Shown here: piece by piece, positions 29,489-33,440 of the stretch
Numbering within the stretch: position 1 is the first letter of the stretch
How the letters are laid out: each line of letters starts with the position of its first letter
Assembly (NCBI RefSeq): GCF_013299175.1
Contig: NZ_JAAFKF010000018.1
Span: forward strand, 1-46,349
DNA from: Sphaerotilus sp.
GTDB taxonomy: Bacteria; Pseudomonadota; Gammaproteobacteria; Burkholderiales; Burkholderiaceae_C
Direction of reading: 5' to 3'
DNA length: 46,349 bases
The notes under the pieces: generated by a model
Told to the model about the DNA's origin: nothing
The model's input: only the letters and a program-made list of their open reading frames with translations
Databases searched by the model: none
Position numbers and translations under genes: made by a program

Positions 29489-29506
29489 GTGCGGGTGGAG
29501 CACGGC

Positions 29507-31096
29507 ATGTGGGTCCGACTGCGCCGCCGCCATTTCGACAGCCACTCGCTGGTGTGGCAGTCCGTGGCCGTGATCCTGCTGCCGGCGCTGCTGGCGGCGG
29601 CCGGGTTGCACTGGGGTGGACGGGTCTCGCCCGAGCTGGTCGGGACGATGCTGGTCACCGCCACCCTGTGCGCCGCTGCCAGCGCCGCGCTGGCCTACCG
29701 GGTGAGCCATTCGCTGCGGCAGCTCATCGCGGCGACCCAGTTGGTGCGGCGCAGCGAGCCGGTCGATGACATCAACCTGCCCCTGCAGACTGGCAGTTCG
29801 GAGCTGCAGCGCGCCAGCGCGGGTCTGCGCCGGCTGATCGAGGTCTGGCGCCGGCGTCAGCGCGATCTGCTGGCCCAAACCGAGTCGCTGGGCCGCCGGC
29901 TGGCCCTGCGCACGCACGAACTCTCCACCTTGCAGGATCTCTCGATCGGGCTGGCCAGCAAGACGGAGCTGCACGAGCTGGTCGCCGAAGCCCTGAGCGC
30001 GCTGGAGCAGACCATGGCCTACACCAGCGCCTCGGTCTGGTCACGCACCGCCCGCGACGAGGGCGGCCAGGTCGTGCTGATGGGCTACAGGCAGAACGAC
30101 GACGCCAGTCAGGCACCCGAGGATGACCTGACCGGCATGCGTCTTTCGCGCTCCAACCTGCAACATTACGAGCACATCGAGCGCGAAGGTGAAGCCATCG
30201 TCGAGAACCGCGTGCGCCAGAGCCTGTTGTCGTGGCTGTTGTCGTGGCTGTCGGACGATGCGCGCACCTCGGGGTTGTACCGGGGCACGAAGGCATGGAT
30301 GGCCGTGCCGCTGAAGTCACGCGAGGCGGTGATGGGCGTGCTGCGGGTGGACCACGAAGAGCCTGACTTTTTCGACGCGGAGCGCATTCGCCTGCTCACC
30401 GCGGTGGGCAGCCAGACGGGACTGGCGATGCGGCACGCGCAACTGCTGGCCCAGCAAAAGGACCAGGCGGTGGTGGCCGAGCGCAACCGCATCGCGCGCG
30501 ACCTGCACGACGCGGTGTCGCAGACGCTGTTCGCTGCCAACGTGATCGCTGGCACGCTCGGCCGGCTGGCGGCGCGGCTGCTGGAGGGCGAGGACGCCTG
30601 TGCGGCGGCGGCGCTGCAGCAGCAGGCCGAGGCGCTGGAGCGGCTCAACAAGGGCGCGCTGTCCGAGATGCGGCTGCTGATGTTCGAGCTGCGGCCGGAC
30701 GCGCTGCAGCACCTGCCGCTGGCCGATCTGCTCCAGCACGCCATCGACGCGCTCGCCTGCCGTGGCGCGATCGACGTCACCCACCGGCTGGCCCGCGAAG
30801 ACCGCCTGCCCAGCGCCACGCGCATCCAGATCTACCGCATCGCCCAGGAGGCGCTGTCCAACATCGCCCGCCACAGCGGCGCCAGCCACGCCGTGATCGA
30901 ATGGATCGTGCCCGAACAGGGGCGGGGCGGGCGGCTGCGCATCGCCGACGACGGGCATGGTTTCGACCCCGGTGTGTCGCCGCCGGGCCATTTCGGCCTG
31001 AGCAACATGGCCGAGCGGGCCGCCGAAATCGGCGCGACCTGGCTCATCACCTCGGGACCGGACGAGGGCACTGACATCCGGCTGGAACTCACATGA
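29507..31096 (+). CDS. NarX/LiaS-type sensor histidine kinase
   Basis: Membrane sensor kinase of 529 aa. It has two N-terminal membrane helices with a very short periplasmic stretch between them, a HAMP-like segment, a coiled coil, and a GAF domain (about 145-310). The HisKA_3 dimerisation domain carries RIARDLHDAVSQTLF (phospho-acceptor His334) and is followed by a HATPase_c domain with EALSNIARHS and ADDGHGFD. GGAG supports ATG 29507; a GTG at 29489 directly abuts the previous stop and is a possible alternative. Its stop overlaps the regulator start by ATGA. The signal is unknown; the GAF domain suggests cytoplasmic sensing. Confidence 0.92.
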   Translation: MWVRLRRRHFDSHSLVWQSVAVILLPALLAAAGLHWGGRVSPELVGTMLVTATLCAAASAALAYRVSHSLRQLIAATQLVRRSEPVDDINLPLQTGSSELQRASAGLRRLIEVWRRRQRDLLAQTESLGRRLALRTHELSTLQDLSIGLASKTELHELVAEALSALEQTMAYTSASVWSRTARDEGGQVVLMGYRQNDDASQAPEDDLTGMRLSRSNLQHYEHIEREGEAIVENRVRQSLLSWLLSWLSDDARTSGLYRGTKAWMAVPLKSREAVMGVLRVDHEEPDFFDAERIRLLTAVGSQTGLAMRHAQLLAQQKDQAVVAERNRIARDLHDAVSQTLFAANVIAGTLGRLAARLLEGEDACAAAALQQQAEALERLNKGALSEMRLLMFELRPDALQHLPLADLLQHAIDALACRGAIDVTHRLAREDRLPSATRIQIYRIAQEALSNIARHSGASHAVIEWIVPEQGRGGRLRIADDGHGFDPGVSPPGHFGLSNMAERAAEIGATWLITSGPDEGTDIRLELT

Positions 31097-31758
31097 CCCC
31101 ACACGCTACCCACGCTACTCCTTCGGCGCGCATCAGCGTCTTCATCGTCGATGACCACCCCATGATCCGCGCCGGTCTGGTGGGGATGATCATGGGCGAG
31201 AGCGACTTCCACTGCGTCGGCGAAGCCGGGCACGGCGCGGATGCCGTGCGGATGATCCCGGCGCTGCAGCCCGATGTCGTGCTGATGGACCTGCTGATGC
31301 CCCAGATGGACGGCATCGAGGCCATCCGGCAGTTGCGCCCGCTGGCGCCGCAGACGCGGTTCCTCATCCTGACCAGCCTGACCGAGCCGGGCGAGGTGCA
31401 GCGGGCACTGGCGGCCGGGGCGGTCGGCTACCTGACCAAGACGGCGTCGGCGCACGAGCTGGTCAACACGATCCGCGCGGCGTATGGCGGGCGGCGCGTG
31501 TTGTCCGCCGAGGCGACCGAGGCGCTGATCAGCGTGTCGCAGAACGCCGCACCGGGTGCCGACCTGACCCAGCGCGAGCGCGGGCTGCTGGCGCTGATGG
31601 CGCGCGGCCTGAGCAACCAGGACATCTCGGACCAGCTCGGCATCGCGCTGCCCACCGTCAAGTTCCACATCACCAACATCCTCAGCAAGCTGGGGGTGAG
31701 CAACCGCACCGAGGCGGTGCTGCTGGCGCTGCGCCACAAGCTGGTGCCACCCAACTGA
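31093..31758 (+). CDS. NarL/LuxR-family response regulator
   Basis: Partner of the upstream kinase (4-bp ATGA overlap). The 221-aa product has a receiver domain with D20/D21, phospho-acceptor D66 in VVLMDLLMPQMDG and the conserved Lys in GYLTK, then a LuxR-type helix-turn-helix (about 157-215, LTQRERGLLALMARGLSNQD and LPTVKFHI). Targets unknown; the first transcription unit downstream in the same direction is the repeated RNA element and secreted-protein gene. Confidence 0.93.
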   Translation: MTPHATHATPSARISVFIVDDHPMIRAGLVGMIMGESDFHCVGEAGHGADAVRMIPALQPDVVLMDLLMPQMDGIEAIRQLRPLAPQTRFLILTSLTEPGEVQRALAAGAVGYLTKTASAHELVNTIRAAYGGRRVLSAEATEALISVSQNAAPGADLTQRERGLLALMARGLSNQDISDQLGIALPTVKFHITNILSKLGVSNRTEAVLLALRHKLVPPN

Positions 31759-31778
31759 GTCCCGACTTAGGTCTGGGT

Positions 31779-31807
31779 CCGCACCCACCCTTGGGCTGGC
31801 GGTGCGG
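31779..31807 (+). terminator. Possible terminator hairpin after the two-component genes
   Basis: CCGCACC and GGTGCGG form a perfect 7-bp stem around a 15-nt centre that can pair partly itself. There is no T run, so it may act only with Rho or be incidental. Confidence 0.3.
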
Positions 31808-31832
31808 CCGAGGCTCCCGCCTACCATGCTGT

Positions 31833-31923
31833 CTGCGAGCTGCAATGTCCTCCCCCCCGCGGACGGCTCGCAGGGAACATAACTGGCAGGGAGGAATTTT
31901 TTCAAACAACAGGAATCTGCCAG
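31833..31923 (+). ncRNA. Structured repeat element, copy A (candidate leader RNA or sRNA)
   Basis: First of two similar elements (see 33247). Stem 1 is CTGCGAGC (31833-31840) with GCTCGCAG (31866-31873); its loop carries TCCTCCCCCCC. Stem 3 is CTGGCAG (31883-31889) with CTGCCAG (31917-31923); its loop carries GGAGGA and a T6 run. The two loops can pair (TCCTCCC with GGGAGGA), giving a kissing or pseudoknot fold. A TACCAT hexamer at 31822-31827 would start transcription at stem 1. The next gene begins 84 nt after it. I match it to no known RNA family. Confidence 0.55.
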
Positions 31924-32007
31924 ATTCTCGCTTCGGGTTCTCGGGGCAGTGGCGATGGATCGATACTGGGTGATCGATGTCTCCACCCGGCTGCTGCCGC
32001 TCTGCCC

Positions 32008-33138
32008 ATGTCTGTCCATCCGTTTTTCCGCTCCGCCGTGCTGGCCGCGTCCAGGGTGCTTTGCGCACTGACCCCGCTGCTCGCACCGGCCGCGCAGGCC
32101 GCACCGGCCCTCGCCGGCTGCGAACTCTTCCCCCCCGGTGCCATCTTCAGCCAGCGCATCGACGATGTGCAGCGTTTCCCGCCCCACGCCCGCAGCACCG
32201 CCTGGCTCGGCTCCATCGGCCCGGGCCGCAAGCTGCACGCCGACTGGGGCCGCACCGTCGATCCCCTGCAGACCGAGCGTTATTACGGCATCCCCGTCAA
32301 CGTGGTCGATGGCACCCCCGCCACCACCCGCTGGCCGCTGGTGAGCCACGGCATCCAGGATGTGCGCGACTCCAATGGCCAGGGCGTGCCCGCCGAGAGC
32401 GACTGCGCCGTCGGCGACCAGGGCACGCCGGCGATCCTGCGCGGCTGCGATGGCGTGATCCCGACACGGCGGCGCTTTCCCTATCCGCTCGACGCCTTGC
32501 TGAAGGCCGAACGCGGCGCCTGCAACGACCCCGCCACCTGCGGTGACCGCCATGTGCTGGTGCTGGAGCAGGGCGCCTGCCGCCTCTGGGAAAGCTACTT
32601 CAGCTACCAGGTCAACGGCCGCTGGAGCGCCTACGCCACCGCCGCCTGGGACTTGAAGTCGATGGAGATGCGCCCGGACGGCTGGACCTCGGCCGACGCG
32701 GCGGGCTTGCCCATCCTGCCGCTGCTGGCGCGCATCGACGAGGTGGAGGCGGGCGTCATCCCCCATGCGCTGCGCGTGACCTTCCGCGATGCCGTGCTGG
32801 ACCGCCGCCACACCTGGCCCGCCAGCCACTCCGCCGGCACGACCCGCGCCGACGGCATCCCCTTCGGCGCGCTGCTGCGGTTGCGGGCGGACTTCGACAT
32901 CCCGTTCTGGTGGACGGCACAGGCCAAGGTGCTGGCGCGCGCGATGCAGAAATACGGCCTGTACGTGGCGGACATCGGCTCGGACTTCTTCGTGCAAGGC
33001 GACCCGGACGAACGCTGGAACCCCCTGACGGTCTGGCAGATCCAGCACATGAAGCTCAACGACTTCGAGTTCGTGGACATCGGCGCGATCACGCGGCACC
33101 CGCGCTTCAACCCGCGCTCGTACCAGGCAGCATGGTGA
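32008..33138 (+). CDS. Uncharacterised secreted protein
   Basis: 376 aa with a signal peptide (cleavage probably after AQA, residue about 31). The mature part has CELFPPGAIFSQRIDD, GDRHVLVLEQGACRLWE, WTSADAAGLPILPLLARIDE and YGLYVADIGSDFF. From memory these recall a widespread family of secreted proteins of unknown function common in Actinobacteria; it is unusual in this gene context, so acquisition is possible. It contains several cysteines that could form disulfides in the periplasm. No ribosome-binding site precedes the ATG. It lies between the two copies of the structured element. Confidence 0.75.
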   Translation: MSVHPFFRSAVLAASRVLCALTPLLAPAAQAAPALAGCELFPPGAIFSQRIDDVQRFPPHARSTAWLGSIGPGRKLHADWGRTVDPLQTERYYGIPVNVVDGTPATTRWPLVSHGIQDVRDSNGQGVPAESDCAVGDQGTPAILRGCDGVIPTRRRFPYPLDALLKAERGACNDPATCGDRHVLVLEQGACRLWESYFSYQVNGRWSAYATAAWDLKSMEMRPDGWTSADAAGLPILPLLARIDEVEAGVIPHALRVTFRDAVLDRRHTWPASHSAGTTRADGIPFGALLRLRADFDIPFWWTAQAKVLARAMQKYGLYVADIGSDFFVQGDPDERWNPLTVWQIQHMKLNDFEFVDIGAITRHPRFNPRSYQAAW

Positions 33139-33440
33139 GGTGAGGTGTGGTGTGGTTTGGTGGGCGAGGGTTGTCCAGACCAAAGTCTTGGCGCCGACCG
33201 GACCTCTGCCCGGTACTGTGCAGAACAGGGCCACCTACCATCCATTGGCGAGCTGCACATCCTCCCCCCCGCGGATGGCTCGCAGGTAACGACAACTGAC
33301 AGGGAGGGTCTTTTTCCAGAACAACGAGAAAGACGACTGTCGGGGGATGGAAGCTGATGCGCAGACCGCGGTGTGAATGCGGCAGTGTCAGTGGCTACAG
33401 CACCAACACACACACCTACACACGCAGGGGAACACTGCAC
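33139..33440. other. Intergenic region holding element copy B
   Basis: About 300 bp. It opens with a GGT/GTG-rich low-complexity stretch just after the secreted-protein stop (to about 33170), then a TACCAT hexamer (33236-33241), element copy B, and about 100 bp without recognisable signals before the next start. Confidence 0.6.
33247..33340 (+). ncRNA. Structured repeat element, copy B (candidate leader RNA or sRNA)
   Basis: Second copy of the element at 31833. The 27-nt core from TCCTCCCCCCC through GGCTCGCAGG differs at one base from copy A. Stem 1 is GCGAGC (33248-33253) with GCTCGC (33278-33283). Stem 3 is GACAG (33298-33302) with CTGTC (33336-33340), where copy A has GGCAG with CTGCC: a G-C pair replaced by A-U. 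GGGAGGG (33302-33308) and a T5 run follow as in copy A. It precedes a membrane-protein gene by 100 nt. Confidence 0.55.

Follow-up and report, generated by a model that had tools for sequence, protein, structure and literature searches.

Two groups of bacterial small RNAs (sRNAs) come closest to what is reported here. The alpha-r14 / NfeR1 (SmelA075/A099) RNAs of Rhizobiales are described as carrying ultraconserved anti-Shine-Dalgarno (anti-SD) loops on variable stems; they occur in several copies per genome and their promoters are regulator-controlled (PMC10746234, PMC3927594). The NgncR_162/163 RNAs of Neisseria are adjacent paralogous sRNAs which, for the most part, repress their targets by blocking the ribosome-binding site (PMC9973317). 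The present text deals with two short repeated elements, A and B, in a 46,349-nucleotide (nt) stretch of contig NZ_JAAFKF010000018.1, referred to throughout as the window, which belongs to a Sphaerotilus-like genome (G000; 4.0 Mb, 201 contigs). No description of this RNA, or of small-RNA work on Sphaerotilus, was found among the open-licence papers listed in literature searches. Judged from the sequence, the elements are a real RNA pair with an unusually clear promoter, and they are best read as paralogues, sister copies of one short structured RNA whose family appears so far to be restricted to one genus, Sphaerotilus and its close kin. The family, absent from Rfam 15 and found in a genus of filamentous sheathed bacteria, brings with it a regulator hypothesis, exact promoter boxes and a covariance-supported stem.

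An original prediction made from this window had proposed two imperfect repeats, each preceded by a TACCAT hexamer and lying upstream of a gene, in which a first stem encloses a C-rich loop complementary to a GGGAGG further 3'. Both repeats were found where they had been placed, with the hexamer before and a gene after each. The near-identical core was reported by the repeat finder as a 31-nt direct repeat of 94% identity (31848-31878 and 33260-33290), stem 1 encloses TCCTCCCCCCC, and the duplex of C-rich loop and GGGAGG was computed at -13.4 and -12.8 kcal/mol in the two copies. It was the extent that had to be corrected: with the conserved promoter dyads counted in, as they belong to it, the functional unit reaches about 70 nt more in the 5' direction than proposed. 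The first reading had also missed the twin-dyad promoter, the link to a response regulator and a position at the foot of stem 1 that resembles a start site.

The repeat is not a product of chance, since a covariance model finds 13 copies in seven of the 13 genomes of the genus, in agreement with the claim of a conserved RNA. All 13 were matched at E 1.1e-10 or better and the next match stands at E 0.08; G000 itself holds exactly two copies by both pattern search and covariance model. Both A and B are present in G000, Sphaerotilus natans ATCC 13338 (G010), S. sulfidivorans D-501 (G005), Leptothrix sp. C29 (G001), a Sphaerotilus metagenome-assembled genome (G004) and G008, and B alone in S. hippei DSM 566 (G003); with the same model, the element was absent from G002, G006 (68% complete), G007, G009, G011 and G012. 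The copies were gathered from the loci around the response regulator, a gene for a 376-residue protein (P376) and parC, and Blast with copy B gave convincing copies in four relatives. The model, R1, was built from 12 of the 13 copies (A4, seven pairs); B of G003, which had been misplaced in the first alignments, was left out of it and was recovered by it at 46.7 bits.

Outside the genus, no homologue was found with R1 in a draw of 399 genomes of the family (six of them from the genus) or in one of 399 genomes of the order (one being G000 itself, and some shared with the family draw). With R1, the family draw yielded 40 matches from beyond the genus at E 0.1 (best 9.4e-5) and the order draw 15 at E 0.01 (best 3.6e-4), these E values being those for one genome. 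Of the 55, the 30 with loci were examined; one, at a contig end, gave no usable sequence, and none of the other 29 holds a run of five C followed by GGGAGG. Searches spanning more than 40 genomes apply stricter filters, by which weak matches are lost. When a 14-nt motif was sought in 200 genomes of the family, the sole match outside the genus (G158, L037) had no C-rich hairpin. A strict motif scan of genome contigs, which also misses diverged B copies, returned 22 stretches, five of them from Sphaerotilus or Leptothrix sp. C29; three of the other 17 (L050, L052, L053) were inspected and lack an upstream C-rich hairpin, and the remaining 14 were taken as chance uninspected. In a scan of the whole window, no Rfam 15 family matched either element at its gathering score, and two tRNAs were reported away from the elements; at E up to 10, the region 31740-33440 had four matches, each to a eukaryotic family and each far short of the gathering score. 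A search for the stem-1 pattern in the 13 genus genomes was discarded as uninformative, the reversed control being equally common or commoner in most of them.

Stem 1 was borne out as a conserved structure backed by covariation. In the model-based alignment, which was fitted to the structure and in which related sequences inflate the covariation counts, all 91 cells over the 13 sequences are standard pairs and five of the seven pairs have changed on both sides. Slid versions of the stem pair in 25-39%, and the covariation score was reached by none of 500 shuffles; the number of further pair types was not above that of shuffles (242/500). Independent of the fine alignment is the whole replacement of the arms in B of G001, G005 and G010. 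The arms found are GCGAGC/GCTCGC, GCGGGC/GCCCGC, GTCGGT/ACCGAC and GCCGGTGAT/ATCGCCGGC, and stem 1 may be regarded as well supported, about as far as the available sequences allow. While the stem sequence varies, the C run of the loop is constant: each of the 13 copies has five or more C in a row there, in stretches such as TCCTCCCCCCC, CTCCCCCC and TTTCCCCCCCC, whose 5' part is variable. Further 3', CAGGGAGG forms an invariant 8-nt stretch, followed after 1-3 nt by 4-7 T, again in all copies. That stem 1 covaries, to the point of a fully changed sequence in three B copies, with the loop still C-rich, argues for selection on an RNA structure downstream of the promoter.

The promoter itself has a fixed design. 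All 13 copies have a -10-like hexamer whose second base is A and whose sixth is T, ending 5-7 nt ahead of stem 1, and in 12 of them it matches TATAAT in at least four of six places; the background is 0.7% of window positions and 1.7% of those in the two intergenic regions. For the -35 box, no match above 3 of 6 was present in any copy, and a plus-strand sigma-70 promoter with a -35 box was rejected as a candidate, none being found. Upstream of the hexamer lie two dyads of the consensus CNGACYTWGGTCNGG. In all 13 upstream regions the best dyad match falls 66 or 43 nt from the end of the hexamer; B of G003, with a hexamer displaced by one or two bases, is no exception. Scores of at least 9 of 13 were obtained at the distal register in ten copies and at the proximal register in 12; nine copies have both dyads at this level and the other four one only. 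Mean scores at offsets 66 and 43 are 10.3 and 9.6 of 13, against a mean of 4.1 (sd 1.3) over 96 offsets, with a consensus that was derived from the same sequences it scores. Palindromes of 14 and 16 nt were also counted without reference to a consensus, and for both lengths the two top counts fall at the dyad offsets; the count of 15-nt palindromes (odd centre) has no such peak there.

A and B being paralogues, the promoter copies are not independent of one another. When G008 was left out of the training of a promoter matrix (13 promoters in training; 2,391,840 positions scored, 1.2 Mb on both strands), the two copies of G008 ranked first (37.6) and second (23.7), with the third match at 18.0, in a test that is not independent of homology, the close relatives G000 and G004 being in the training set. 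If the transcript begins at the base of stem 1, the centres of the dyads would lie near -65 and -42, positions at which activator sites are usual. A single dyad was rejected as a predictor of the regulon, because genome-wide the pattern is rarer than its reversed control, which is commoner in all 13 genomes. The dyads and the hexamer keep a gap-free register across A, B and the promoters of the element-free genomes G011 and G012, and this register would suit a feature of the DNA only, in which regulator promoters with a hairpin had been duplicated and no functional RNA is made; the covariation of stem 1 through the full sequence change in three B copies, under a loop that stays C-rich, makes such an explanation very improbable.

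The genes in the window follow the order parE, MscS-like channel, GAF/HisKA_3 sensor kinase, NarL-type response regulator, element A, P376, element B, a short membrane-type protein (SP) and parC. Orthologues of the regulator (E 1e-58 or better) were found in nine of 60 genomes, namely the seven with the element plus G011 and G012, and among the genus genomes element copies occur only alongside such an orthologue. In G005 and G010 (L153, L154) the regulator stands directly after parE with no channel or kinase between, and both elements are kept; there it is an apparent orphan. With conserved dyads, a fixed register and co-occurrence with the regulator all observed, it is natural to infer that both promoters are directly activated by the adjacent NarL-type regulator. 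The features of the locus are collected in Table 1.

Table 1. Coordinates of the two elements, their promoters and neighbouring genes (window positions)
Feature	Position	Strand	Evidence or remark
Copy A distal dyad CCGACTTAGGTCTGG	31762..31776	+	Starts 66 nt before the end of the -10 hexamer; consensus score 13 of 13
Copy A proximal dyad	31785..31799	+	Starts 43 nt before hexamer end; score 10 of 13; 23 bp from distal dyad
Copy A -10-like hexamer TACCAT	31822..31827	+	A2 and T6 in 13/13 copies
Element copy A: stem 1, C-rich loop, linker, CAGGGAGG, T run	31834..31902	+	Covariance-model match 86.0 bits, E 7.2e-23 (genome); copy in training set
Copy A stem 1 hairpin (31835-31841 with 31865-31871)	31835..31871	+	Covariation
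Copy A C-rich stretch TCCTCCCCCCC, anti-SD-like	31848..31858	+	Run of at least 5 C in 13/13 hairpins
Copy A CAGGGAGG plus T run (T run 31897-31902)	31887..31902	+	Both in 13/13 copies
Copy A outer stem 3 (CTGGCAG 31883-31889 with CTGCCAG 31917-31923)	31883..31923	+	7/7 pairs in 6/6 A copies
Palindrome GAATCTGCCAGATTC, possible alternative to stem 3	31913..31927	+	CTGCCAG in 6/6 A copies; palindrome partly broken in G004
Copy B distal dyad CAGACCAAAGTCTTG	33176..33190	+	Score 10 of 13; register as copy A
Copy B proximal dyad CGGACCTCTGCCCGG	33199..33213	+	Score 10 of 13; register as copy A
Copy B -10-like hexamer TACCAT	33236..33241	+	
Element copy B	33247..33315	+	Covariance-model match 80.6 bits, E 3.3e-21; copy in training set
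Copy B stem 1	33248-33254 with 33277-33283		
Copy B C-rich loop	33260-33270		
Copy B CAGGGAGG	33300-33307		
Copy B T run	33311-33315		
Copy B outer stem 3 (CTGACAG 33296-33302 with CTGTCGG 33337-33343)	33296..33343	+	7/7 pairs, one G-U; 2/300 shuffles equal
GAF-HisKA_3-HATPase sensor kinase, proposed partner	29489..31096	+	Pfam; no match at E 1e-60 in G005, G010
NarL/LuxR-type response regulator, proposed activator	31093..31758	+	Pfam Response_reg plus GerE; orthologue in 7/7 element genomes
P376, 376 residues, predicted secreted (by eye)	32008-33138		

The elements may thus be regulator-activated paralogous short RNAs that act mainly in trans through their anti-SD-like loops, a reading which we hold to be an even prospect. 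Each RNA would be about 65-72 nt long, with its 5' end at the base of stem 1, and would be made from its own promoter without a -35 box, activated by the NarL-type regulator at the two dyads. Stem 1 would display the C-rich loop, which would pair with G-rich Shine-Dalgarno (SD) regions of other mRNAs and lower their translation. Complementarity to SD sequences is by itself unspecific. The invariant GGGAGG before the T run would pair with the same loop and so lock it in an H-type pseudoknot, supply the 3' arm of a terminator helix by which the RNA stops at the T run, or do both; the computed complementarity of the two strands ranges from -8.6 to -13.4 kcal/mol over the 13 copies. The fullest form of this scheme is a self-limiting anti-SD RNA in which GGGAGG serves as SD mimic, as lock and as 3' arm of a pseudoknot-type terminator, with the twin-dyad promoters under one regulator. 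Such a complete combination is unlikely; if true, a two-component signal would be turned into a burst of ribosome-binding-site blockers that need a target mRNA to open. The question raised is whether a hairpin loop and an SD-like strand before a T run can together give termination and a locked anti-SD loop.

The roles of the two strands could also be reversed, the GGGAGG-U-run being the active part, as a decoy that would bind the 30S subunit or else a GGA-binding protein (CsrA/RsmA, for example), and the loop only its lock. The invariance of CAGGGAGG over all its eight nt in every copy is in keeping with such a decoy, and GacA with the Rsm RNAs offers a parallel to paired RNAs under a NarL-type regulator. 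However, each RNA has one such site only, a GGA-binding protein would not need the whole of CAGGGAGG, and the regulator falls well below the NCBIfam cut-off for UvrY/SirA/GacA (136 vs 280 bits), as it does below those of the other response-regulator equivalogs listed; a decoy is considered quite improbable.

An outer stem 3 around GGGAGG and the T run had likewise been proposed. It was confirmed in both window copies, including the change of a G-C to an A-U pair, but not as a general feature, being complete in eight of 13 copies. All seven pairs are present in each of the six A copies and, among the B copies, in those of G000 and G008. The arms never vary in A, where 19-29 of 300 shuffles are as good; for B of G000 and G008 the figures are 2 and 0 of 300. 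For the remaining five B copies, at least 75 of 300 shuffles equalled the best stem 3 pairing. Stem 3 was rejected as a core feature of the family, being unconvincing in these five. In the A copies its 3' arm is part of a palindromic stretch, GAATCTGCCAGATTC or GAAATCTGCCAGATTTC, which could form a hairpin of its own in place of stem 3; in G004 the palindrome is partly broken. No compact hairpin stands ahead of the T run in most copies.

The original prediction had left the choice between a cis leader and an anti-SD sRNA. The conserved structured RNA itself stands, and of the two modes action in trans is favoured. In a leader or attenuator, regulator-activated transcripts would run from A into P376 and from B into a DUF481 gene or the short membrane protein, and a switch between stem 1 and a CCUCCC/GGGAGG helix followed by the T run would set read-through or termination; this is a rival to be taken seriously, though less likely than not. 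The minimum free energy (MFE) fold of the stretch from element to T run abandons stem 1 in five of the six A copies, four of which take a fold closed by CCUCCC/GGGAGG and that of G001 a related one, by a margin of 0.8 to 4.4 kcal/mol over the hairpin alone. Two folds so close in energy in the A copies would suit a switch, as would the T run after GGGAGG in all 13 copies, the conserved CTGCCAG beyond it in A and the position of every copy upstream of a gene. Against this, A of G010 and all seven B copies retain stem 1 in the MFE fold.

The downstream genes bear on the same choice. A always precedes P376 (6/6 copies). Comparison of G000 with G008 showed an A unit conserved to the palindrome, then a poorly conserved spacer and then a conserved TCGATACT block before P376 (31960-31967 in the window). 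This -10-like block was found in six of the seven P376 loci tested, those of G008, G005, G010, G001 and G006 among them; that of G006 has neither element nor regulator. P376 would in these loci have a start of its own, which does not favour a leader; in G004 the block is missing and P376 may for that reason depend on promoter A, which does. Two further points speak against a leader: in G003, P376 sits elsewhere without an element, and the gene right after B varies, being a DUF481 barrel in G008, G004, G005 and G001 and SP in G000, G010 and G003; the DUF481 gene, of outer-membrane type (L033:3050-3871, L108:3401-4201), is absent from the locus in three genomes. Examination by eye for a leader open reading frame after GGGAGG gave no start codon at a constant position. 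A short RNA with some read-through, as a mixed case, would be compatible with action in trans as well as with a leader.

Two further observations were made by eye. In G001 and G006 a hairpin-like stretch, GCGAAG...TTCGC, lies between TCGATACT and the start codon. Before parC on L102 (G006), the stretch that separates P376 from parC appears to retain no more of SP than its C-terminal codons, which suggests that SP was lost together with element B.

Several findings weigh against regulator-activated short RNAs acting mainly in trans. The pairing of loop and GGGAGG has no covariation support, because GGGAGG never varies, and four B copies, those of G004, G001, G005 and G010, show an interruption of this pairing. 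CTGCCAG is kept 3' of the T run in all six A copies, a hint that the A transcript extends beyond the T run, and each element precedes a same-direction gene in all seven genomes, as a leader would. The A copies of G005, G010 and G001 have no recognisable distal dyad, and B of G001 has no recognisable proximal one. The scan tool found neither a plus-strand sigma-70 promoter nor an intrinsic terminator at either window copy; it would miss a promoter and terminator of the proposed kind, since there is no -35 box and 34 nt separate the proposed terminator arms of copy A. The sole promoter-like site that it reported lies on the minus strand within copy A (31905-31876), a sigma-70-like TTGAAA, 18, TATGTT with 9 of 12 matches (0.1 expected in shuffles), and it could give an antisense transcript. 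Lastly, G011 and G012 lack the element, and the same promoter design precedes short open frames there (L152, L155), with two dyads and a hexamer TACCCT or TAAGCT aligned without gaps after the regulator; these two promoters, which were placed by eye, reach lower best dyad scores (9 and 10). From these two genomes the design seems to follow the regulator and not the RNA. The small open frames have, by eye, a signal-peptide-like start.

For P376, no match was found in Pfam, NCBIfam or PDB sequences, and its AlphaFold model is poor (mean predicted local distance difference test score, pLDDT, 57.1). Relatives occur in 23 of 100 genomes searched, many of them aligning only over about residues 158-360. 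Comparison of 31740-33440 with plasmids gave two weak matches only, both within the P376 coding region, in one Streptomyces and one Kitasatospora plasmid.

The comparison with anti-SD RNAs that had been drawn at the outset is apt: in the alpha-r14 family the C-rich hairpin loop is likewise kept while the stems diverge, there are multiple copies and transcription is tied to a regulator, as it would be here. The anatomy differs. Alpha-r14 RNAs have three or four hairpins, each with CCUCCUCCC, whereas the elements have one hairpin and a C run with a variable 5' part; the two belong to different classes of bacteria, and a GGGAGG-U tail is not part of the description of alpha-r14 in the text available. 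As to membership of an alpha-r14 / suhB-type family, a conserved loop on variable stems was found, and an Rfam match and three CCUCCUCCC hairpins were not. The CcsR/cuckoo RNAs of alphaproteobacteria, compared by Rfam scans only, also have C-rich loops in repeated short RNAs, but differ in bacterial class, promoter type and context. NgncR_162/163 have three stem-loops and 78% identity and are encoded side by side, whereas the present elements have one stem-loop and, in six genomes, a gene between the copies. OmrA/OmrB and the Rsm RNAs under GacA are also paired RNAs activated by a two-component regulator, as these elements may be, with sequence and structure that are, to our knowledge, unrelated to theirs. 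Membership of the alpha-r14 or NgncR_162/163 groups thus fails on anatomy and the likeness may lie in the mode of action, for which alpha-r14 is the nearest working model.

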